NCBI GenBank assembly: GCA_028292435.1
Contig: JAQGMI010000060.1
Location: forward strand, 1-64,000
Origin: Betaproteobacteria bacterium
Lineage (GTDB): Bacteria; Pseudomonadota; Gammaproteobacteria; Burkholderiales; SG8-41
Length of the DNA stretch: 64,000 bases
Direction: 5' to 3'
Position numbers and translations under genes: made by a program. Of this stretch, positions 12,304-39,004 are shown piece after piece; within the stretch, counting starts at the first letter, position 1; each line of letters opens with the position of its first letter. Under the pieces are notes generated by a model that did not search any database, was not told where the DNA came from, and was given only the letters and a program-made list of their open reading frames with translations.

Positions 12304-13794
12304 ATGGTTGTGACACAGTGCAATATTTCGGAAGGCACCGAGAATGCGCCGCACCCATTCGCGCTCGTAGAGGCAATGCGCAGCATAGGTTACACCCCAC
12401 CCACGGCGCTGGCTGACCTAATCGATAACGGTATTACCGCAGGCGCGAAGAACATTAAGATACGCATGTCACCGCCGCGGACGTCCACACCAAGCGGATT
12501 CGTAGTCGTCGAAGACGATGGCAACGGCATGTCGCCCGAACGTCTGGCCGAAGCGATGCGGTGGGGTGGTGATGGGCCTGATCGACCGCGCCGAGTCGAT
12601 GACCTCGGTCGCTTCGGTCTTGGTATGAAGACTGCATCGATTGCTTTGGGTCGCAGGTTGACCGTTGCAAGTCGAGCGGCAGGCGAGCCGCTTCGAATAC
12701 TGCGCTGGGACCTAGATCATATTGCACAGGCAGGTTGGAAGATGCTGGACGGTCCGGATGCTGAGGCGGAGCCTCTGATGGCGCGGTCTGCTCTATTCAC
12801 GGAACCGACGGCAACCGGAACTATTGTTATCGTGACTTATCTTGATCGGCTGGCTGTTCGATCGTCGCTTCCGTCGCATTCGGAGCGCAATGAGGCTGCG
12901 TTAACCGCAAAAATTGCCGAGCATCTTGGAATGGTATTCCATCGATTCATTGCTGAAGGACTGAAAATCCGGCTAGGGGCATCGGAAATTTCCGGATGGG
13001 ATCCTTTCAAAAACGCGGTGCTTAAGGACACGGAAAAGCTTGGAGGGGCAGTGGAAGTGGCTTCCTACGTGCTGCCGCATCATTCTACGGTTACGACGGA
13101 GGAGGATAGTCGGATGGCTGGCCCGTCAGGTTGGGGTGCGCATCAAGGATTCTTGGTATATCGCGCAAGACGTCTTATCGTCCCGGGCGGATGGTTGAGG
13201 TTATTTTCGCCGGCAGAAAATTGTCGATTAGCACGTATTCGTATTGACCTACCAAATATGCTTGATGACGGATGGAAACTGAACGTTATGAAGTCGAGCG
13301 TAGTGCCGCCCTCGTGGCAACTCGCCGACCTACAGCGTATCGGCGAGGCAACACGTCGTGAATCGATGGCAATGTTTAATTTCCGTGGCGAGCGGCAGGC
13401 GCCTACGACAGGGAGCGATGATAGTTCTGTACCGAATGCGTTTTGGATGCAGGTGCCGTCACCCGACGCCGTGCGTTTTCGCATCAATCGGGCGCATGCG
13501 GTAGTTCAAACGCTGAAACAATCCGTTCGTGACCCGGCGGTTGCCGAGGATTTTCTGCGAGCGTTTGAGCGGATGCTACCGTTGCAGGCGATCCTTCAGG
13601 ACCCGAAGCGCACGGTCAATGGGGCCGTGGACGAACCAACGCCGGACGAGTTGCGGGGCATGGCGGAATTTGCGAAAAAGGCTGTCAAAACCCTGCGCGC
13701 ACAAGGCTATGCGACAGATGCTGCTTGCCGTATTGTTTTGTGCTCAGAACCATTTGCGCTATATGCTGAAAAAATCCGGCCTCACCTGATATAA
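12304..13794 (+). CDS. GHKL/MORC-like ATPase of a restriction-type defence system
   Basis: A 496-residue protein with an N-terminal GHKL (Hsp90/MutL/histidine-kinase) ATP-binding domain. The N box is ALADLIDNGITAGA with N42, followed by VVEDDGNGM (residues 68-76) and the glycine-rich GRFGLGMKTASIALG (102-116). MORC/MutL homologues in restriction-modification islands carry this layout and are thought to act as ATP-driven conformational switches on DNA. The C-terminal half has no motif I recognise. GGAGG lies 10 bases before the ATG. The stop is 3 bases before the next start, so it is the first gene of a four-gene operon. Confidence 0.85.
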   Translation: MVVTQCNISEGTENAPHPFALVEAMRSIGYTPPTALADLIDNGITAGAKNIKIRMSPPRTSTPSGFVVVEDDGNGMSPERLAEAMRWGGDGPDRPRRVDDLGRFGLGMKTASIALGRRLTVASRAAGEPLRILRWDLDHIAQAGWKMLDGPDAEAEPLMARSALFTEPTATGTIVIVTYLDRLAVRSSLPSHSERNEAALTAKIAEHLGMVFHRFIAEGLKIRLGASEISGWDPFKNAVLKDTEKLGGAVEVASYVLPHHSTVTTEEDSRMAGPSGWGAHQGFLVYRARRLIVPGGWLRLFSPAENCRLARIRIDLPNMLDDGWKLNVMKSSVVPPSWQLADLQRIGEATRRESMAMFNFRGERQAPTTGSDDSSVPNAFWMQVPSPDAVRFRINRAHAVVQTLKQSVRDPAVAEDFLRAFERMLPLQAILQDPKRTVNGAVDEPTPDELRGMAEFAKKAVKTLRAQGYATDAACRIVLCSEPFALYAEKIRPHLI

Positions 13795-13797
13795 CCA

Positions 13798-16614
13798 ATG
13801 CTAACTAAGCAGGAGTTTCTCAATTTCGCCCTTGCCGGGATCGCGGCCCGCGGCATCCAGGCACCCGAAGACGTCGAGGTGCAGATGGACCAACTGCTGG
13901 CGCTAGCGCCGCACCTCGTCGAGCACCGCCAATATCTTATCGACGAGGCGTTGGCCCACGTCATTACTGCGGTCGGCCGATGCGAATCGATGGTCGATGA
14001 CGACGAGGATGTCCGTTGGCTCACCTCCGAGACGTCGAAGGCATGGGTGCACTGGCCGTGGCTTAAGGCCTATCTGGGAGCGGAAGTCCGTCGGCCTGCG
14101 CAGGTTATGAAGGAACTGGACGACAGTACGGACGAGGTCATCGACCTGCTCGGTGATCCGAAGCGGGAAGGAATATGGGATAGGCGCGGCCTCGTGGTGG
14201 GCCATGTGCAATCCGGGAAAACGCAGCACTACACTGCGCTTACCGCAAAGGCGCTGGACGCCGGTTTTAAGCTGGTAATCATTCTTTCAGGCATCCACGA
14301 AAACCTTCGGCAGCAGACGCAGGAGCGAGTTGAGCAGGTGATCATCGGCAAGGACAGCCGGAACAATTTCGCACACTGCGGAATCCGGCTATGGTCCAAC
14401 AAGCGTCTGCGGCTCTGCATAGAAGGGGACCCAACAGATGGTTTACCCGACATCAGTACGCTCACCTCCGTCGCGGGTGACTACGGCGCAGCTGTAAATG
14501 CCCAATTTCACGTTACGCCCGGGCAGGCGCCAGTGATTCTCGTGATAAAGAAGAACGCGTCGATACTTCGCAATCTACTCCGTTGGGTCACGTCGATCGA
14601 AGACGGTGCTCCTCTGAGGGTGCCAACCTTGGTTATCGACGATGAGGCGGACCACTCGTCGATCAACACAGCCGCAACCGACCCGGACACCAACCCGACG
14701 ACAATCAATCTGCTCATTCGCAAGTTACTCTGGCGCTGCGACCGGGTCGGCTTCGTCGGCTACACGGCGACGCCGTACGCCAACATTTTTATGGACCAGA
14801 ACCATGTAGAAAAGCGTGCCGGCAGGAATCTCGAAAATGAAGGATCGGACCTGTTCCCTAAATCCTTCATCACGAACCTTGATTCGCCGACGAATTATAT
14901 TGGACCGGAAACCGTTTTCGGCCATGCCGGTGATGAAAGTCTCGGGATTCCACGTCGCGCTTCCTTGCCAATGCACGAGCGTGCAGATGATGCCGAAACA
15001 TGGCTGCCACCACGGCACAGGAAGGATTGGGCGGTTTCGCCGGATCTGCCGATTTCTCTACGTGAAGCGCTTCGAGCTTTCTTGCTTTCGACGGCGGCAC
15101 GGATCACGCTTGGTCATGATACTTCGCATATGTCGATGCTCGTCCACGTGAGTCGGTTTAATGACGTCCAGGAGCAGGTCACCAGCCATGTACAGAACGA
15201 GTTGTCATCGCTCATCGAGAGACTTCGGCACGGCGATTCGGCGGAACAGGACTGGATTAGTCTGAAGGAAATCTGGGACCGGGTTTTCGTAAGGTCATAT
15301 CCAAGTTTTGCAGCACACACCTCGCAGCAGCTGATCAAGCCTGTCATGCCCGATTGGCCAGCAGTGCGTCGTCAGGTCGTGTCAGCGTTCGAGCGGATGA
15401 GGTTCAGCAATATAAACAGCACGACGAAGGAGAGTCTCGATTACATGGGCACTCCTGAGGGGCTGATAGTGGTGGCGGTTGGTGGTGATCGTCTGAGCCG
15501 CGGATTGACGCTCGAAGGTCTCAGTGTCAGTTACTTTCTCAGGGGCGCAAAAGCCTTTGACACGTTGATGCAGATGGGCCGATGGTTTGGCTATCGTCCG
15601 GGCTACGCGCATCTTTGCAGAGTGTATGCGCCCCCTGCTATTGTGCAGAACTTCCGGACAATTGCGCTCGCGACTGAGGAACTCCGCAGGGAGTTCAGCC
15701 GGATGTGTTTCCTGAACAAGCGTCCAACTGAATACGGACTACGCGTGCGCGAGCCCCGTGCAGACCTACTGGTGACGGCGATGAACAAGATGCGACGCGG
15801 CGAATCTGTACGTGTGCATTTCGCGGAAAGTCTCGTTTCCTCACTTGACATTCCGACAGCTGCTGCAGAAGCCAACTACAGCGCGTTCGTCAGGCTTGTG
15901 GACGCGATGGAAAAAGAGTCTGGTCAGCCCGTAACCGGTCCGACAATGGTCAGCGGCGAGAAGGGTTCGTCCTATCACTACAGGTGGGATGCTGTCGATG
16001 CTGAATACGTGGTGGAGTTCCTTAAGCGCTATCGGGCGAACGTGAACGTTTGTTTCGAGGAGATGAACGACGGCTCAACCATGATTTCACGGTTTGTCGA
16101 GTCGATGAACAGCAAGGGCGAGCTTACTGGGTGGACTGTGGCGCTCATCGGCAGCAGCAAGATGACAAGGCGAGCGATTGACGGTCGCGAGTACCGGGCT
16201 CTGAACCGCAATATCGATTCGGACAAGGCGACGACGCGCGTGAACCAGCATGTATTTCAAAGTGTCGCAATGGGCCAAGACGAAGCAATTGATCTTACGC
16301 GCACTCAATACGAGGAGGCGCTTTCTCTCTATGAACAAAGTGAAAAACGCGCGTCAAAAGCTGGATTCTTTCGCATGAAGCGTCCGCCAGAGCGCGGGCT
16401 GTTGCTACTCTATCCGATCATTCCGCGCCGTGACGAGGAGGAACTGCGCGTGGCCCATCCGGTCATCGGCGTAGCAGTGAGTCTCCCATCTTCCACGAAC
16501 GATGTTGGACAAGACTATGTATGTAATCCGCGGATGCTGGCAGAACTTTATGGCGCCGAATTTGCCGACGACTCGCAGCGCGACGCGATTGAGGAGGCGC
16601 AGCCGGCAACATGA
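13798..16614 (+). CDS. Z1 domain-containing helicase-like protein
   Basis: A 938-residue protein with the Z1 domain of a superfamily II-like P-loop NTPase. Walker A is GHVQSGKT (135-142), Walker B is VIDDEADHS with DDEAD at 281-285, and a motif III-like GYTATPYANIF is at 321-331. The C-terminal helicase half shows DRLSRGLTLEG near residue 564 and the arginine-finger-like MGRWFGYRPGY near 591. Z1 proteins accompany MORC ATPases, PD-(D/E)XK nucleases and AIPR proteins in restriction-type systems and probably translocate on DNA. The end overlaps the next gene by ATGA. Length is normal for the family. Confidence 0.9.
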   Translation: MLTKQEFLNFALAGIAARGIQAPEDVEVQMDQLLALAPHLVEHRQYLIDEALAHVITAVGRCESMVDDDEDVRWLTSETSKAWVHWPWLKAYLGAEVRRPAQVMKELDDSTDEVIDLLGDPKREGIWDRRGLVVGHVQSGKTQHYTALTAKALDAGFKLVIILSGIHENLRQQTQERVEQVIIGKDSRNNFAHCGIRLWSNKRLRLCIEGDPTDGLPDISTLTSVAGDYGAAVNAQFHVTPGQAPVILVIKKNASILRNLLRWVTSIEDGAPLRVPTLVIDDEADHSSINTAATDPDTNPTTINLLIRKLLWRCDRVGFVGYTATPYANIFMDQNHVEKRAGRNLENEGSDLFPKSFITNLDSPTNYIGPETVFGHAGDESLGIPRRASLPMHERADDAETWLPPRHRKDWAVSPDLPISLREALRAFLLSTAARITLGHDTSHMSMLVHVSRFNDVQEQVTSHVQNELSSLIERLRHGDSAEQDWISLKEIWDRVFVRSYPSFAAHTSQQLIKPVMPDWPAVRRQVVSAFERMRFSNINSTTKESLDYMGTPEGLIVVAVGGDRLSRGLTLEGLSVSYFLRGAKAFDTLMQMGRWFGYRPGYAHLCRVYAPPAIVQNFRTIALATEELRREFSRMCFLNKRPTEYGLRVREPRADLLVTAMNKMRRGESVRVHFAESLVSSLDIPTAAAEANYSAFVRLVDAMEKESGQPVTGPTMVSGEKGSSYHYRWDAVDAEYVVEFLKRYRANVNVCFEEMNDGSTMISRFVESMNSKGELTGWTVALIGSSKMTRRAIDGREYRALNRNIDSDKATTRVNQHVFQSVAMGQDEAIDLTRTQYEEALSLYEQSEKRASKAGFFRMKRPPERGLLLLYPIIPRRDEEELRVAHPVIGVAVSLPSSTNDVGQDYVCNPRMLAELYGAEFADDSQRDAIEEAQPAT

Positions 16615-17591
16615 GCCCGCTTGATTTGACGAAGGCGTGGGACGAAATCGGCCGACAGACAATTAATGGCACTGCAGGTCCTTACTTGCACTTACAAATG
16701 CGGGGAGGAGACATGCCGATCGGTGTGATACTGCGCGCGAGGGACCGACGTCCGGGGCTTCTCGTGCGTTTCAGATCCGCCGATCTCTCCCGATTACCTC
16801 AACCGGATTCCGGCCGGGGCTTTTCGTTCGAGCGACCGGTGCCGGCGGGGAGCGGCATGCTGGGACTACCAATCCTTCTCGCGGATCCGGCGGCCGCAGA
16901 TCTTTTCGCCCTCATGGGGGCGGATCTTATTTCAGAGGTCGAGCGCCTCGATGCGAACATCGCCGCCGTAGATCGTGTTCTACGGCGCATCTCCCTTTGG
17001 CGTAGGTTCCTCCAGCGGCGCGGCGGTCTGATGACGTCTGAAGAAATACGGGGGCTGTTTGGCGAGTTATACGTTTTCTCGCTCATCGTTTCAGCCGACG
17101 GCGTTGATGCGGCACTGGAAGCGTGGAAAGGTCCGGAACGTGAGCTTCACGACTTCCATTTCGCCGACGGCCTCGTGGAGGTCAAGGCTTGGCGTGCCGA
17201 GTCAGGCGCACGGGCATATATTTCGCAACCAGATCAAATTAGTGTCGATCCTATCCGTCCGTTGCATCTCGCTGCCGTTCGGATTTCGGTCGGCGGCATG
17301 GCCGGCCGTACCTTGCGCGAAACCGTGGCACTTCTTGAGGGTCGGATGAGCGGTCTTCAACTGCAACGGTTCGAGGAACTCTTGGCGGATTACGGCTACC
17401 TTGAGGCACAAGCGGACGAATACCGTGACAAAATGCGTGTGCTCGGCATAGATGTCTACGAAGTGCGTGACGGGTTTCCGTATGTAGACGTCCGGTCGAT
17501 TCCGGGGGGCGTGGTTAATCTTCGTTATGCGATCGAGCTTGGGGCGCTGGATCGATTCCGAACGAGCAATCGGCATCTAGCCCAGCCATGA
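16611..17591 (+). CDS. PD-(D/E)XK family nuclease (DUF4420 type)
   Basis: A 326-residue protein translationally coupled on both sides through ATGA overlaps. The central region carries a restriction-endonuclease fold: E152 in LFGELYVF, D181 in LHDFHF and the E190-V-K192 of LVEVKAW, which together make the E...D...ExK active site. It is the best candidate for the DNA-cleaving subunit of the system. The N-terminal 130 residues resemble the beta-rich first domain of the DUF4420 family. No membrane segment or signal peptide is seen. Confidence 0.85.
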   Translation: MSPLDLTKAWDEIGRQTINGTAGPYLHLQMRGGDMPIGVILRARDRRPGLLVRFRSADLSRLPQPDSGRGFSFERPVPAGSGMLGLPILLADPAAADLFALMGADLISEVERLDANIAAVDRVLRRISLWRRFLQRRGGLMTSEEIRGLFGELYVFSLIVSADGVDAALEAWKGPERELHDFHFADGLVEVKAWRAESGARAYISQPDQISVDPIRPLHLAAVRISVGGMAGRTLRETVALLEGRMSGLQLQRFEELLADYGYLEAQADEYRDKMRVLGIDVYEVRDGFPYVDVRSIPGGVVNLRYAIELGALDRFRTSNRHLAQP

Positions 17592-19672
17592 ACATCGAGT
17601 CCATTCGCCAAGAAATATACGAGACCGCAAACTGTGCAGATAGCGGTCTCCATCGCACCGAGGCGATCTTCCGGTCCTTGGCGGGAACAGTGGCAGAGGC
17701 AGGTTTTCTCACGGATCCCCAATTCACACCAATTCGATTCAAGTCAGGCCGGCAGCAGTGCGCTATTGATGGTTACGACATTGACGAGGAAGACGGAGTG
17801 ATAACGGTGTTTACTGTTATCGACGCACACGCCGCAACGGAGCTGGATCGGCCGTGGGCAGACGCGACATGCGCAAAGAAGGACTTAGACCAAGCTGTGA
17901 AGGAAATGGTTGCGGCCATAGAGGCCATCGGAAGCGGGACGCGACCGCCGTTGGACGAGTCTGACCCCGCGCAAGACCTCGTCAAGTCCTTGCAGACGGA
18001 TTACCGAGCGGAGCAGGGCCGCGTGACATGCTGCGTGCTAACTACGGGCCGCGTGACCAATATGGGCGCGGATTCAGCTGCGGAAGCCGCGATCCGCACA
18101 GCGGTATGGGATGCAGACCGGCTTATTCGAACTCGCGAAAACGGACGCGAACAGCTCGTGGCGGATTTTGAGCCAATCGGTGGACTGCCCTGCTTGGTTT
18201 CCGAGCATGAGGCCGCGGAAATCCAAGAGGGCAGGGTTGGCGTCCTCATCGCCAAGGTTCCGGGGACTTTTCTCGCCTCCCTTTACAACGAACATCGAAT
18301 GCGGCTGCTGGAGCGAAACGTCCGGGCATTTCTGCAGTTCACCGGAAAGGTGAACAAAGGTATTCGCGAGACAATCCGTTTCAAGCCGGAGCATTTCCTT
18401 TCCTTCAACAATGGAATCGCCGTAACCGCCTCAAAGGTAAGGCTGAGTAAGAGCCCGGGCGGCTACCTGCTTCTCGTGGCAGAGGATTTTCAGATCGTAA
18501 ATGGAGGCCAGACTACGGCATCTCTCGCTCGTTGCGTACGCGAGGATAAGGCTGACGTGTCCGCCATCGCTGTTGCCATGAAGCTGACGGTGGTGCCCGA
18601 AGAGCTTATCGGAGAACTCGTGCCGCTGATTTCCCGCTATGCCAACACTCAGAACCGAATCCAAGAAACGGATTTCTTTGCGAACAATCCTTGGCACATT
18701 GAGCTAGAGCGCCATTCGCGTGCTGTAGAGGCCGAGCGGGATGAGCTGTCCGAGGGACGCCCGATCCGCTGGTATTACGAACGAGTACGCGGACAGTATG
18801 CGGAAGAACTGGCGAAACTCTCAACAGCGCCTCGAAAGGCGGCATTTCGTAGCCGCAATCCTTCCCGCGCAAAGTTCACAAAGACAGATCTCGCACGATA
18901 CCTCTTGGCGTGGGAGCAAGAGGCACATACGGTAAGTCTGGGCGGGCAGAAATGTTTTGTTCGACTCATGGCAGTACTCGGCGCAACAGCAACAAATGCA
19001 GAGGCGAGCCAGTTGCCCGGCGAAGAAGAATTCAGGCGCATCTGCTGTCTCGCGCTCCTTCAACGTCGAGGCGAAAAAATATGTACTGAGCTAGGTATCG
19101 TTGGTTACCGCGCGAATCTCGTCGCATATGCAATCATGGTGCTTTCAATCCAGACCATGAAACGCCTGCCATGGCGAAAGATTTGGACGAGTCAGGCGGT
19201 TCCGCCAGACATCGATCAGGCGCTGCGCATCGCGATCCCGGCATGCGATATGGCTATCCGCGAATCTGCGGGTCCAAGAAATGTCAGCGAATGGGCGAAA
19301 AAGCCCGACTGCCGCCAATTCGTCTTGGACCGTAAAATTGAGTTGACCCTGCGACCGTCAATCGATTGGGATCAGTTTTCGATCAAAGATATGGCACGGC
19401 CGAAAGGCGAGATTGACCTTATTCGCGTGTTCTGCAAATTGAACGCAGAACAGTGGCTCTCGGTGGCGAATGCCGCGCGACGTGGTGGTGCGAATCCAGT
19501 CTGGAGCGGGGTGGCTGAAACGATGGCAAATCGGCTGATTCCAGCTGGACGCTCGCCCTCTGAAAAGCAAACTAAGGTCCTGAGAAAGGTGCTTACGCGG
19601 TACTCCGGAATCGCTGCTCTTCGTAAAGTCCTTTCGAACGAGGATCAGAGAATACTCTCAGGAGGCAGTTAA
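17588..19672 (+). CDS. AIPR family (abortive infection phage resistance) protein
   Basis: A 694-residue AIPR-family protein and last gene of the operon. The family core is clear: FNNGIAV with F273-N-N-G276, then FQIVNGGQTTASL with N305-G-G-Q-T-T310, then ISRYANTQNRIQETDFFANN. AIPR proteins were first linked to abortive infection by plasmid-borne phage-resistance systems and recur with Z1 and MORC ATPases. Their biochemical role is unsettled. Start ATG overlaps the nuclease stop. Downstream lies only an 86-base gap before the convergent vsr gene. Confidence 0.88.
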   Translation: MNIESIRQEIYETANCADSGLHRTEAIFRSLAGTVAEAGFLTDPQFTPIRFKSGRQQCAIDGYDIDEEDGVITVFTVIDAHAATELDRPWADATCAKKDLDQAVKEMVAAIEAIGSGTRPPLDESDPAQDLVKSLQTDYRAEQGRVTCCVLTTGRVTNMGADSAAEAAIRTAVWDADRLIRTRENGREQLVADFEPIGGLPCLVSEHEAAEIQEGRVGVLIAKVPGTFLASLYNEHRMRLLERNVRAFLQFTGKVNKGIRETIRFKPEHFLSFNNGIAVTASKVRLSKSPGGYLLLVAEDFQIVNGGQTTASLARCVREDKADVSAIAVAMKLTVVPEELIGELVPLISRYANTQNRIQETDFFANNPWHIELERHSRAVEAERDELSEGRPIRWYYERVRGQYAEELAKLSTAPRKAAFRSRNPSRAKFTKTDLARYLLAWEQEAHTVSLGGQKCFVRLMAVLGATATNAEASQLPGEEEFRRICCLALLQRRGEKICTELGIVGYRANLVAYAIMVLSIQTMKRLPWRKIWTSQAVPPDIDQALRIAIPACDMAIRESAGPRNVSEWAKKPDCRQFVLDRKIELTLRPSIDWDQFSIKDMARPKGEIDLIRVFCKLNAEQWLSVANAARRGGANPVWSGVAETMANRLIPAGRSPSEKQTKVLRKVLTRYSGIAALRKVLSNEDQRILSGGS

Positions 19673-19758: not shown

Positions 19759-20178
19759 TTAGCGCCGAAGTTTTCGTTCTATCTGCAGCGCGCATTGATT
19801 TACGTCGTTACGGATTTGATGTTCCCACACCCGGATCACCAGCCAGCCGCTCCGCTTCAGATCACGGTTTGTGGCTGCATCTCGATTCTTGTTTCCCAGG
19901 ATTTTGTTTTTCCAAAATTGTGCATTGTTCTTGGGCCACACAAGATGTTTTCGGCAACCGTGCCAGAAGCAGCCGTCAACGAAAAGGACAACTTTGAAAC
20001 GTGGGAAAACTAAATCTGGCTTTCCGCGCAATTTTGTAGACAGTCGGTAGCGAAGACCTAAGCCCCACAGTGCCTTGCGGAGTAAAATTTCCGGACGCGT
20101 GTTAACGCCCCGAATTCTGGACATGTTGTAGCTTCGCTGGGCGGCTGTATGTACGTCCGACGATGACCTGGATGTCAT
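19759..20178 (-). CDS. vsr: very short patch repair (Vsr) endonuclease
   Basis: A 139-residue Vsr nuclease. In the known family it nicks 5' of the T in T:G mismatches that arise when 5-methylcytosine deaminates, protecting the methylated site from C-to-T mutation. The core is intact: catalytic D55 in GKPDLVF, then VDGCFWHGC with F71-W72-H73, the WxxKI segment (FWKNKILGNKNRD) and the C-terminal VIRVWEHQI. Its ATG overlaps the stop of the methyltransferase gene, so the two are translationally coupled. It is convergent with the AIPR gene. Confidence 0.95.
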   Translation of the reverse strand: MTSRSSSDVHTAAQRSYNMSRIRGVNTRPEILLRKALWGLGLRYRLSTKLRGKPDLVFPRFKVVLFVDGCFWHGCRKHLVWPKNNAQFWKNKILGNKNRDAATNRDLKRSGWLVIRVWEHQIRNDVNQCALQIERKLRR

Positions 20179-21653
20179 ATTTGCTCTAGAACATCATGCA
20201 CAATCGCAGCTAGTTGCCCTGCTAGCAACGGGGGCACTGCGTTACCCACCTGTTCATATTGCTGAGTACGGTTTCCCTCAAAAAAATAATTGTCGGGAAA
20301 CGTTTGCAGTCTAGCTGCTTCTCGCACAGTGAGGCTACGGCACTGAACAGGATCGTAGTGGATGAAGTAATGTCCGTCTTTACTAAGGTGGGACACGATG
20401 GTCGTTGCAGGCTTGCTCGCAGCCTGAACTCTGAACCGATCTGCGAACATCGTTCCATTTGCGGCGTCCTTAATATTCACATGATTAGGCCAGAGGCTCC
20501 TTGGGAATTCTGAGATTTTGGGCGACGTGCAATATAGTCTCGTATAACTCGATGCAAATAAATATCGCTTCAGATCGCTCCCCATGTGGGATTTTGAAGC
20601 ATGGTGAGTGACTCCATGAATATTCCCATCAAGGAACCAATTTTTTTTCTGCTCTAACCATGCACTTCTCAAAGTTGGAGTGGTGCGGACATTCAGAAAC
20701 TCGGCTCCACAAGATAAGTCTTTCAATTTAGCAACGTGTTTATGCAAGGCAGTTCTCAGGACGTTTCGCAATTGCAATTGTTTCAAGCTGGCTACTGCCT
20801 TCTTCCAATTGTTGAAAGTTGGCTCTGCTTTTGTGATGGCGCTTCTGATCTTAGGTAGATCGCCGATAGCTTCCTTTACGGAAATAAAAGCAGATTTTCG
20901 TCTCAGAACGCGGCGTTTTCGTTCAAGGTCGTTTCGGATGCCTAAAAGTATGACTCGATGCCTGGTTTGAGGTATGCCAAATTCTTCTGCTCTGATGATA
21001 AAGTCTTTAGGCTCTGGCTCAGCGTTCGCGTGGAGCCGCGTGAACGAATGTATTGTGTACCCAGCGTTAGCTAAGTCCTTTCGTATTTTGCCGAATATAT
21101 GCGTGTCCTTAACCGTCGAGGATAGAATTCCTTTGACGTTTTCCATCACAAAAACTGGGGGTTTGAATCGTTCAAGAATTCGGAGGTATTCTCGATATAG
21201 AAAGTGGCGATGATCTTGCTCGAACTCGTCCGGATTTGAACTGCGCATTCTGGATCTTCCCGCAAGTGAGTACGCTTGGCATGGAGGACCTCCTATTAGC
21301 ACCCACTTTTCGCGCTTTCCTTTGAGGGCATTGCTAATTAATTTTTCCACTTTTGGGTAATTGTATCTGCCAAGTTTTATGCATTTAGCTTCAGCTTTTG
21401 CGAGCTTTGCTTCGTCGGGATAGAGTCTAAATAAGTCCTCGGTTGAGATTTTTCCGCGAATACGGGCATAGTATTCTTCAGGTGCCGTTTCAAATTTTCG
21501 GAGAAAGCTGCGTAGAAGTAACGTCTGATGAGCTACCGGTTCTTTCTCAATCGAAAGAACGCTATGGAAGGATGTCCCGTTCTTGCTACGAAACGACGAG
21601 AACCCTTCGTTCAGCCCGCCGGGACCTGCAAAGAGATCGATGACTGGTATCAC
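20175..21653 (-). CDS. DNA (cytosine-5) methyltransferase
   Basis: A 492-residue C5-cytosine methyltransferase that transfers a methyl group from SAM to cytosine in a specific DNA site. Motifs in order: I DLFAGPGGLNEGF (6-18), IV GGPPCQAYS with nucleophile C125, VI MENVKG with E171, VIII QTRHR (229-233), then a variable target-recognition region of about 150 residues, IX TVREAARLQTFP and X QVGNAVPP. Translation starts at GTG 21653 without a strong ribosome binding site. A candidate promoter lies at 21769-21797. The coupled vsr gene and the CCWGG-rich array upstream suggest, but do not prove, a Dcm-like CCWGG specificity. Confidence 0.93.
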   Translation of the reverse strand: MIPVIDLFAGPGGLNEGFSSFRSKNGTSFHSVLSIEKEPVAHQTLLLRSFLRKFETAPEEYYARIRGKISTEDLFRLYPDEAKLAKAEAKCIKLGRYNYPKVEKLISNALKGKREKWVLIGGPPCQAYSLAGRSRMRSSNPDEFEQDHRHFLYREYLRILERFKPPVFVMENVKGILSSTVKDTHIFGKIRKDLANAGYTIHSFTRLHANAEPEPKDFIIRAEEFGIPQTRHRVILLGIRNDLERKRRVLRRKSAFISVKEAIGDLPKIRSAITKAEPTFNNWKKAVASLKQLQLRNVLRTALHKHVAKLKDLSCGAEFLNVRTTPTLRSAWLEQKKNWFLDGNIHGVTHHASKSHMGSDLKRYLFASSYTRLYCTSPKISEFPRSLWPNHVNIKDAANGTMFADRFRVQAASKPATTIVSHLSKDGHYFIHYDPVQCRSLTVREAARLQTFPDNYFFEGNRTQQYEQVGNAVPPLLAGQLAAIVHDVLEQI

Positions 21654-21824: not shown

Positions 21825-21993
21825 ACCAGGTTGTGACCTGGTATTTAACAAGCGAAACCAGGCTATGGCCTGGCTAGTGGTCGGGGAAACCAGGCCATAA
21901 CCTGGCAAAGTGTCGGAAACACCAGGCTACAGCCTGGTCAAAAAAATAAACCAGGTTGAAACCTGGTATACTAAAACCAGGTTATAGCCTGGT
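21825..21993. promoter_or_regulatory. array of six CCAGG-N6-CCTGG palindromes
   Basis: Six 16-base palindromes of the form CCAGG-N6-CCTGG, mostly extended to ACCAGG...CCTGGT, are centred at about 21833, 21865, 21897, 21929, 21958 and 21984. Centre spacings are 32, 32, 32, 29 and 26 bases. The N6 cores differ (TTGTGA, CTATGG, CCATAA, CTACAG, TTGAAA, TTATAG) while the arms are invariant, so the arms are under selection. The linkers are AT-rich and unrelated. A TATACT -10-like hexamer lies at 21967-21972 between the last two units. The array fills the divergent region between the methyltransferase and mobile mystery protein A genes and is probably an operator set. Every arm is also a CCWGG site. 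Confidence 0.7.
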
Positions 21994-22017
21994 TTTTTTT
22001 GATGAAAGGATAGCGCC

Positions 22018-22476
22018 ATGAAGGATAAAGACTTACTAAGGATGCGTCAGATAGAAGAACTCGCCGCGCCTTATCGCCAAGTCCTTTCGGGTCGTAGGCC
22101 ACAAAAAGGATGGATCCGCGCAATACAAGAAGGACTTGGAATGACCAATGTTCAGCTCGCGAAACGACTAAAGCTCCAACCACAAACAGTGGAGGACATG
22201 CAGGGATACGAGATCAGTGGAACGATAAAACTTAAGACGCTCGAAAAACTTGCCTATGCAATGGGATGCCGTCTTGCTTACGCAATAGTACCTCCAAAAC
22301 CTCTTGAGGAGATGCGCAATGAGCGAGCGTACACCATCGCAAAACGTCAACTCCAACCAGTGTCTCACTCAATGAAATTGGAAGATCAGGGCGTAACGGA
22401 CGCGGAGGAACAGAGTGCGATTGACCGCTTGGCAAAAGAAATATTAGCCGGCAATCCAAAACAATTATGGCAATAG
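22018..22476 (+). CDS. mobile mystery protein A (Xre-like HTH regulator)
   Basis: A 152-residue DNA-binding protein of the mobile mystery protein A family. A helix-turn-helix occupies roughly residues 41-78 (GLGMTNVQLAKRLKLQPQTV and following). These proteins are always encoded just ahead of a Fic-domain partner on variable or mobile DNA. By analogy with other regulator/toxin pairs, A probably represses the operon and may neutralise or control B. AAAGGA precedes the ATG. The six-palindrome array directly upstream is the natural candidate operator. The stop overlaps the start of the next gene by 10 bases. Confidence 0.88.
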   Translation: MKDKDLLRMRQIEELAAPYRQVLSGRRPQKGWIRAIQEGLGMTNVQLAKRLKLQPQTVEDMQGYEISGTIKLKTLEKLAYAMGCRLAYAIVPPKPLEEMRNERAYTIAKRQLQPVSHSMKLEDQGVTDAEEQSAIDRLAKEILAGNPKQLWQ

Positions 22477-23081
22477 AATTTGAATATCCTCCGGGTTCGA
22501 CACCATTAGATCCTGATGAAGCGGCTGGACTAATTCCAGGACACATTGCTACGCAAGGACAGCTAAATGAATGGGAGATGGCGAATATTCTGCGTGGTGA
22601 GGCATGGGCGTTTTCTAGAAAACACGACGATATGCTTTCGCCAAAATTCATTCGCTTCTTGCATAAGAAATTATTCGAGGATACGTGGGAATGGGCCGGC
22701 AAATATCGCACAACAGCGAAGAGTATTGGGATCGACGCTGCGCAGATTGGCCTTGAATTGAGCAAATTATGTAAGGATGTTGAATGCCAGCTTAAATATC
22801 GCAGTTATCCTCCAGATGAGCTTGCCGCTCGATTCCACCATCGCCTAACTTGGATACACCCCTTCCCAAATGGAAACGGCCGTTTCTCAAGAACAATGGC
22901 CGATCTCCTGATGGTGCAGAATGAAGAGCCCCGTTTTTCGTGGGGTGCTAGTGACATTATTTCGAAAGGAAATGTACGCACTAAATACATTGCGGCTTTG
23001 AAAGCAGCTGATGTCAAAGACTATGGTCCTCTTTTGGAATTCCTAAGATCAGGACACAGGCCGATTGGCGGGGCTGGTTAA
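22467..23081 (+). CDS. mobile mystery protein B (Fic domain)
   Basis: A 204-residue Fic-fold protein, partner of mobile mystery protein A. Fic enzymes usually transfer AMP or another nucleotide-derived group to hydroxyl side chains of target proteins. The core motif is HPFPNGNGRFSR starting at H131. The canonical motif is HxFx(D/E)GNGR, but the acidic Mg2+-binding residue is N135 here. This Asn form recurs in the mystery protein B group, so activity may be altered rather than lost. No inhibitory (S/T)xxxE(G/N) helix is evident. The start overlaps gene A by 10 bases, so translation is coupled. Confidence 0.88.
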   Translation: MAIEFEYPPGSTPLDPDEAAGLIPGHIATQGQLNEWEMANILRGEAWAFSRKHDDMLSPKFIRFLHKKLFEDTWEWAGKYRTTAKSIGIDAAQIGLELSKLCKDVECQLKYRSYPPDELAARFHHRLTWIHPFPNGNGRFSRTMADLLMVQNEEPRFSWGASDIISKGNVRTKYIAALKAADVKDYGPLLEFLRSGHRPIGGAG

Positions 23082-38425: not shown

Positions 38426-39004
38426 TTATTCGGCCGCAGCCGAGTGCCGGAAATGGTGGTCGCCTTCGCCGCCACGGTTGCCATGGTCGCCGTGGCCACC
38501 GCGCGCACCGCCGGCGAATTGCTTGTCGGCGATCGCTTTTTGCTCAGGCGACAGCACTGCATAAAGGTCCGTCACTGCGGCGGTCCGCGCTTCCATGCTC
38601 GCAACGAACTGCTTCATCCGCGCTGTGCGTTGCGCAAGACGTTCCGGCGCCGGCACGTTTGTCGCCGGTTTGTCGCCGCGCGCCTTCCTGTCGGCCATCA
38701 TCTTGGTGCGTTGGGCAAAGCGCGCTTCGCTTTGTTGACGGATTTTGCCGGCGAACGTCTGCCAGGCGCTTTCCTGGTTAGGCGTTATCTTGAGCTCGAC
38801 TTTCAATGCGGCAAGATGGCCTTCGACCGCGGCGGCCGGATTGCTCCAGCGGCCGTGACCATGATGGCCGCCGTGCCCGCGCATGCCGTGGCTTTCGCCG
38901 TGGGCACCTGCAGGCTTGTCCGCCTGCGCGTACACCTGCGAACCCGACGCCGCCAACGCGGCGGCTGCAATCATGCCGGCGATAATTTTACGGTTGTGTC
39001 TCAT
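38426..39004 (-). CDS. Spy/CpxP family (LTXXQ motif) periplasmic protein, copy B
   Basis: A 192-residue secreted protein with a signal peptide ending near V-Y-A-Q (residue 27). A His/Gly-rich segment follows, and after the helical LTXXQ-type core (ITPNQESAWQTFAGKI and LSPEQKAIADKQF) the C-terminus is again His/Gly-rich. The histidine clusters (GHGGHHGHGR near residue 43 and GDHHFRH near the end) could bind metal ions such as zinc, copper or nickel. AAGGAG precedes the ATG at 39004. It is divergent from the response regulator gene, as cpxP is from cpxR. Confidence 0.85.
   Translation of the reverse strand: MRHNRKIIAGMIAAAALAASGSQVYAQADKPAGAHGESHGMRGHGGHHGHGRWSNPAAAVEGHLAALKVELKITPNQESAWQTFAGKIRQQSEARFAQRTKMMADRKARGDKPATNVPAPERLAQRTARMKQFVASMEARTAAVTDLYAVLSPEQKAIADKQFAGGARGGHGDHGNRGGEGDHHFRHSAAAE

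Follow-up and report, generated by a model that had tools for sequence, protein, structure and literature searches.

Evenly spaced palindromes upstream of mobile mystery protein A genes as a probable autoregulatory operator array

Six palindromes lie between a C5 cytosine methyltransferase gene and a pair of mobile mystery protein genes, and their arms read as a methylation site. Which of these genes would such an array serve, and does the methylation site matter to it? We analysed the array in the window (the whole stretch of 64,000 nucleotides) together with the upstream regions of other mmpA genes. Judged from sequence, the array is very probably the autoregulatory operator of the mmpAB operon.

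The array and its neighbouring genes

The genes around the array were assigned as follows.

12304..19672, + strand: MZA-like defence cassette (MzaB from 12304, MzaC from 13798, MzaD from 16611, MzaE from 17588; profile and PADLOC matches)
19759..20178, - strand: Vsr-type endonuclease, partner of the methyltransferase (profile matches)
20175..21653, - strand: C5 cytosine methyltransferase, 492 aa, divergent from mmpA (profile matches, PADLOC)
22018..22476, + strand: mmpA, mobile mystery protein A, 152 aa, HTH regulator and proposed antitoxin (TIGR02612, 140.4 bits, cut-off 122.6)
22467..23081, + strand: mmpB, mobile mystery protein B, 204 aa, Fic-domain protein (TIGR02613, 245.6 bits, cut-off 124.4; Pfam Fic)

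The profile matches bear out the first-pass annotation, which had called the divergent gene a C5 methyltransferase with a Vsr partner. Both genes are convergent with the defence cassette. MzaB to MzaE were matched in order but under the NCBIfam cut-offs (296/850, 593/1500, 150/420 and 301/1050 bits, respectively), while the PADLOC models clearly match all four genes; the cassette is therefore named MZA-like. In the text available to us, Iyer and colleagues described restriction-modification neighbourhoods with GHKL ATPase and helicase genes beside methylases and Vsr-type endonucleases (PMC2292703). On the other side of the array, mmpA is adjacent to and upstream of mmpB with a 10-bp overlap, and both exceed their curated cut-offs as a mobile mystery pair.

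The array (21826-21992, + strand) consists of six exact copies of CCAGG-N6-CCTGG, listed here with the possible promoter element between the last two.

21826..21841, no strand: palindrome 1, CCAGG-TTGTGA-CCTGG (exact sequence match)
21858..21873, no strand: palindrome 2, CCAGG-CTATGG-CCTGG (exact sequence match)
21890..21905, no strand: palindrome 3, CCAGG-CCATAA-CCTGG (exact sequence match)
21922..21937, no strand: palindrome 4, CCAGG-CTACAG-CCTGG (exact sequence match)
21951..21966, no strand: palindrome 5, CCAGG-TTGAAA-CCTGG, right end overlapping the TG of the possible extended -10 (exact match; promoter by eye)
21964..21972, + strand: possible extended -10 (TGGTATACT) of the mmpAB promoter (by eye)
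21977..21992, no strand: palindrome 6, CCAGG-TTATAG-CCTGG, which would cover the transcription start (exact match; start position inferred)

The five-base arms are perfect in 12 of 12 half-sites, an A stands immediately left of the palindrome in all six sites, and the centre-to-centre steps are 32, 32, 32, 29 and 26 bp. In dinucleotide shuffles of the 364-bp intergenic region, at least two copies were seen in 0 of 20,000 and one copy in 11. The phased palindromes with invariant arms reported in the first-pass annotation are thus real, and mmpA does start 25 bp past the end of the array, as it had stated. Its description of the cores as variable holds in that all six differ; they are not free, however, but tend towards YTRTRR and share a TATA-like centre with the relatives. 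Its suggestion of proteins on one DNA face fits part of the array. At 10.5 bp per turn the sites lie at helix angles of 0, 17, 34, 51, 326 and 137 degrees, so that five sites are within about 51 degrees of the first and the sixth is off-face.

The array appears as a set of operator-like sites over the promoter of mmpAB itself, as is expected for a type II toxin-antitoxin module with an autoregulating antitoxin, a placement made by sequence only, with the window promoter located by eye. No good -35 was found for this promoter in the window, and a promoter scan gave no + strand promoter at 21964..21972. The centre of the last site lies 33 bp before the mmpA ATG.

Exact CCAGGYTRNRRCCTGG occurs in its own genome (90.6% complete) in the array only. 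When one mismatch was allowed, four places were found outside the array vs. three for a reversed control pattern, which gives no sign of a wider regulon; a regulon elsewhere in this genome was rejected as a candidate on these counts. The exact tandem pattern was also searched for in 398 genomes of the phylum, and the sole match was the array's own genome. Elsewhere in the window, a lone exact CCAGG-N6-CCTGG with the core CGCTTT is present at 38762-38777.

Arrays at other mmpA loci

A first set of 71 mmpA loci was assembled, comprising the window, 14 loci from contigs, 10 from plasmids and 46 from genomes, with wider flanks. The genome-derived loci were drawn from matches over the cut-off (in 26 of 369 genomes and 23 of 399 genomes), and the ten plasmid loci were chosen from 238 records with MmpA matches among 72,556 plasmid records. 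Left out of the set were weak or cut matches (L041-L044, L067-L073), a match over the cut-off on a short contig (L036) and matches without a returned locus, among them a second copy in G165. Five mmpA matches (L051-L054 and L056) have a single in-frame TGA within the match. Start codons were assigned by rule; none was found in L014, L103, L109 and L110, and a fixed offset was used for these 4 of the 71. Two loci with less than 100 bp upstream (L134 and L135) were excluded from the array tests, leaving 69. The test took the best-scoring pair of sequence windows that were both palindromic and alike, the sole constraint on spacing being a distance of at least 20 bp.

In 43 of the 69 mmpA upstream regions the best palindrome pair had a spacing of 31-35 bp (shuffles, 4.9%). 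Best pairs close to 33 bp, or to its double or triple, numbered 60. Other ORF starts of the same loci, used as a control, gave 29/469 at 31-35 bp and 58/469 near the 33-bp multiples. After clustering of MmpA at 70% identity the counts were 28/48 and 42/48, respectively. All 20 shuffles were beaten by 52 of the 69 upstream regions and not by the other 17. The best pair was off period in nine loci. The window is one of these: its best pair stands 55 bp apart (29 + 26), although its first four sites keep steps of 32 bp. Another class of the phylum (385 genomes) supplied a second set of 28 loci; none is at least 70% identical to the first set, and six pairs reach at least 70% among themselves. Here 20 of 28 best pairs fell at 31-35 bp and 23 near the multiples (shuffles, 4.6% and 10.7%), with 17 beating all shuffles, 11 not doing so and five off period. 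Palindrome arrays with a spacing of about 33 bp are found at mmpA loci of several phyla, as named in the contig titles.

Traced site by site, spacings were 33 bp in 101 of 161 cases, 32 bp in 33 and 34 bp in 9, counts that are favoured by the limits of the tracing (24-36 bp). Arrays of two, three, four, five and six sites were seen in 9, 34, 21, 4 and 1 of the 69 loci, and the centre of the last site lies 3-24 bp before the start codon in 58 of 69. The window departs from the 33-bp rule in its final steps (29 and 26 bp). Most consensus sites have a TATA-like centre (T at -2 in 42/48, A at -1 in 40/48). The outer arms differ by clade, e.g., CCAGG in the window, TTAGG in Hyphomicrobium, TAAGG in Flavobacteriales and GAAACC in Leucothrix, and spacing and position stay constant. 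A promoter match of the form TTGAC-16 to 18-TAnnnT was found in 10 loci; a traced site overlaps the -10-like hexamer in nine of them and none does in L104.

The letters of the operators drift together with the sequence of MmpA. Operator distance correlated with distance in the MmpA HTH (Mantel r 0.30, 0/2000 permutations) and in the recognition-helix region (r 0.31, 0/2000). A correlation was also seen for the remainder of MmpA, outside the HTH (r 0.22, 0/2000), so shared descent accounts for part or much of the operator-HTH correlation.

Position bears on a second possible role, in which array-bound MmpA would also control the divergent methyltransferase and Vsr genes. The divergent layout would allow this, a promoter-like site for the methyltransferase lies at 21797-21769, about 28 bp from site 1, and the window's six sites make the longest array of the 69. 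However, the predicted methyltransferase promoter is a weak consensus match (9/12; shuffles mean 0.5) that no site overlaps, and relatives with other neighbours also have their array before mmpA. We consider two-way control unlikely, and the divergent methyltransferase is probably a neighbour outside the switch.

Palindromes might also act in RNA, as hairpins or terminators, rather than as DNA operators. Site 6 (21973-21996, + strand) and site 5 (21967-21950, - strand) are terminator-like with T runs (two vs. a shuffle mean of 0.6), and a T run follows the middle site of L005 by eye. In relatives, however, arm mismatches were G-T in 57 cases and A-C in 55 (the 69 traced loci minus six, the window among them), and this near-equality indicates no RNA pairing bias. 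By eye, the last sites of L004, L006, L010, L011 and L013 reach right up to the start codon and lack a T run. Given no G-T bias, an RNA role was judged very unlikely.

Viral contigs were searched as well. No relative turned up either by phage tblastn with MmpA or by pattern-based searching of viral contigs. A tandem-palindrome scan of viral contigs gave 26 stretches, and MmpA, MmpB and the methyltransferase were all absent from the DNA fetched around them. Spacings were multiples of three in 18 of the 26, which points to repeats within genes. Spacings of 32 or 33 bp numbered 11 of 26 vs. about 4 expected if flat, an excess that possibly comes from coding-repeat bias. Among the viral contigs listed, the stretches of L162, L176 and L179 are inside reading frames and those of L175 and L180 between long ones. 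Two copies of CCAGG-N6-CCTGG stand 32-33 bp apart in L175 (10526-10573), L180 (3437-3485) and L162 (4198-4246). A strict core scan gave six stretches, all singles except for L162. Phage-borne arrays are a weak lead.

The methylation site in the arms

The arms of the window array are CCWGG, the sequence that Dcm methylates, twelve of them with perfect arms within 170 bp, as the first-pass annotation had counted. It went on to propose that binding could depend on methylation: the methyltransferase would modify the twelve arms, alter MmpA binding and so tie mmpAB to the level of the enzyme. As a principle this coupling was not supported by the family survey. CCWGG is absent from 60 of the 69 mmpA upstream regions (200 bp readable) and is thus not conserved in the family's operators. 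A C5 methyltransferase was found near mmpA at 2 of 71 loci, the window and L116, by a profile made from the window enzyme and by a motif scan, which covered varying flanks (at least 2.9 kb upstream in 67 of 71 loci) and would miss methyltransferases further off. Methylation coupling as a general rule was rejected on these two results. The same annotation had suggested looking for the palindromes at mmpA loci without a methyltransferase; arrays are present there, but in other letters.

Single loci speak to the same point. In L116, the C5 methyltransferase lies with a Vsr-like gene downstream of mmpAB, at a distance of about 3-4.4 kb, and the operators of this locus are not CCWGG-like. L002, the nearest relative (52-53% identity), has CCWGG-like arms and five upstream CCWGG, but no methyltransferase was found within about 6 kb on either side of its mmpA. 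Upstream of related methyltransferases, palindromes were seen in 0 of 16 readable regions (19 fetched).

The specificity of the window enzyme was approached by comparison. Its PDB sequence match to 3me5, which we take to be Dcm-like, spans residues 115-248 only, and target recognition would presumably lie in residues 241-400. There, 20-residue blocks of 19 relatives match the window enzyme at mean identities of 11-41%, vs. 64-90% in several catalytic blocks; other non-motif stretches are low too. The best PADLOC match is DrmMII (330 bits). DISARM of Bacillus paralicheniformis methylates CCWGG according to the accessible part of a review (PMC5957327), which favours the coupling, whereas the text available for the C5 enzyme of a Serratia DISARM operon gives a motif other than CCWGG (PMC9142583). 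DrmMII-type specificity therefore varies.

Taken with the CCWGG-free relatives, we regard methylation gating of this operator as improbable. Since relatives keep the spacing and change the letters, the match of the arms to the methylation site is probably accidental. A local methylation effect in this genome is possible. In its most specific form, the array would have drifted onto CCWGG beside a methyltransferase that writes that site and would read the modification state, with mmpAB as a sentinel of the cassette; lost methylation of the defence cassette would then change MmpA occupancy and switch the Fic module. We hold this form to be even less probable.

The mmpAB module and related systems

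As a prediction, the first-pass proposal that mobile mystery protein A has its operators in the array finds good support in the family-wide arrays with a spacing of about 33 bp and in the confinement of exact CCAGGYTRNRRCCTGG to the array. Most likely it would be a HipBA-like, cooperatively bound autoregulatory array. MmpA dimers would bind each palindrome through their HTH, and about three helical turns between sites would put neighbouring dimers on roughly one face, allowing cooperative binding. Filled sites nearest the gene would cover the -10 region and the transcription start and so repress mmpA and mmpB; in the window, site 5 borders the possible extended -10 and site 6 would contain the start. 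MmpB would probably be held by MmpA acting as antitoxin; if MmpA were lost, MmpB would be released and the promoter would open again.

MmpB follows close behind mmpA in 63 of 71 loci. The canonical Fic motif is HxFx(D/E)GNGRxxR. MmpB of the window departs from it, reading HPFPNGNGRFSR with N at the D/E place, and in the form HPFxNGNGRxxR this N replaces D/E in 95% of 61 MmpB sequences. The enzymatic activity of MmpB may therefore be unusual, given the N in its motif.

In MmpA, residues M119, L121, E122, Q124 and W151 are invariant in 70 of 70 sequences, i.e., an M-x-L-E-x-Q stretch and a C-terminal tryptophan; M.LE.Q is present in 26 of 28 MmpA of the second set. At the place of the (S/T)xxxE(G/N) motif, the window MmpA reads SMKLED, which is SxxxE-like but has D where G/N is expected. 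The S/T place holds other residues in some relatives, E122 being invariant, and the full motif occurs in 7/71 MmpA and 1/61 MmpB. We propose the S together with the M-x-L-E-x-Q stretch as a putative inhibitory element towards MmpB. Residues 119-124 and 151 are a candidate contact with MmpB; model confidence is low at residues 115-119. The AlphaFold model of MmpA has a pLDDT of 82 and a pTM of 0.49. Its closest folds are the HTHs of the antitoxins HigA and HipB, matched weakly (best E 0.016; none at E 0.001 or better), and a PDB sequence search with MmpA returned nothing useful.

In the portion seen of a cas-gene survey, a TIGR02612 relative from Geobacter that stands next to a Fic gene is named as an antitoxin (PMC3936711). 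In Mesorhizobium loti, the 50 genes most overexpressed after heat shock include mll2066, a mobile mystery protein B gene (M-value 4.02; Table 2 of PMC3989490, an article available to us in part). This rise fits derepression and is no proof of it.

The following comparisons draw on the accessible portions of the cited articles. E. coli hipBA resembles mmpAB in having an HTH antitoxin and several upstream palindromic operators, to which HipB binds cooperatively and so represses hipBA, and the conserved C-terminal tryptophan of HipB recalls W151 of MmpA (PMC3376134). It differs in its toxin, a kinase rather than a Fic protein, in its operator TATCC-N8-GGATA with O1 and O2 28 bp apart (counted by eye in a quoted oligo) vs. 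about 33 bp, and in having four operators vs. two to six in the mmpA arrays (PMC3376134). For Legionella HipBST, nearly every species compared has three operators at even intervals; unlike mmpAB, the system has gaps of 53 bp between them and, as described there, no Fic protein (PMC10653801). VbhA/VbhT, a class I Fic toxin-antitoxin, likewise has the partner gene upstream of the Fic gene, and inhibition in its class by an SxxxE element parallels the S-M-K-L-E of the window MmpA (PMC3667792). In contrast to VbhA/VbhT, MmpA has an HTH and an operator array, D rather than G/N follows in its motif, and the Fic motif of MmpB carries N at the D/E position. In Xre-RES of Pseudomonas putida, the complex of an Xre-type antitoxin represses its own promoter through an inverted repeat, as in our reading of mmpAB, but repression relies there on one imperfect repeat and the toxin is RES, not Fic (PMC12204516).

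With four operators for HipB and three for HipBST, multi-operator antitoxin promoters were already known; the new element is the family-wide 33-bp array before mmpA. In the available text of the open-licence papers found, mobile mystery A and B are mentioned in passing only, and no description of operators of the pair was found in the open-licence literature naming the proteins or their TIGR numbers.

Mobile mystery A and B are widespread, are carried on plasmids and stand here beside defence genes. Palindromes at about 33 bp, with drifting letters and fixed spacing, give the pair a testable mechanism, and the shared architecture of the arrays would support mmpAB as a self-regulated, toxin-antitoxin-like module. 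The spacing lets operators be predicted in uncharacterised genomes, and the mmpA loci offer a natural set of protein-DNA pairs in which changes of HTH specificity can be studied.
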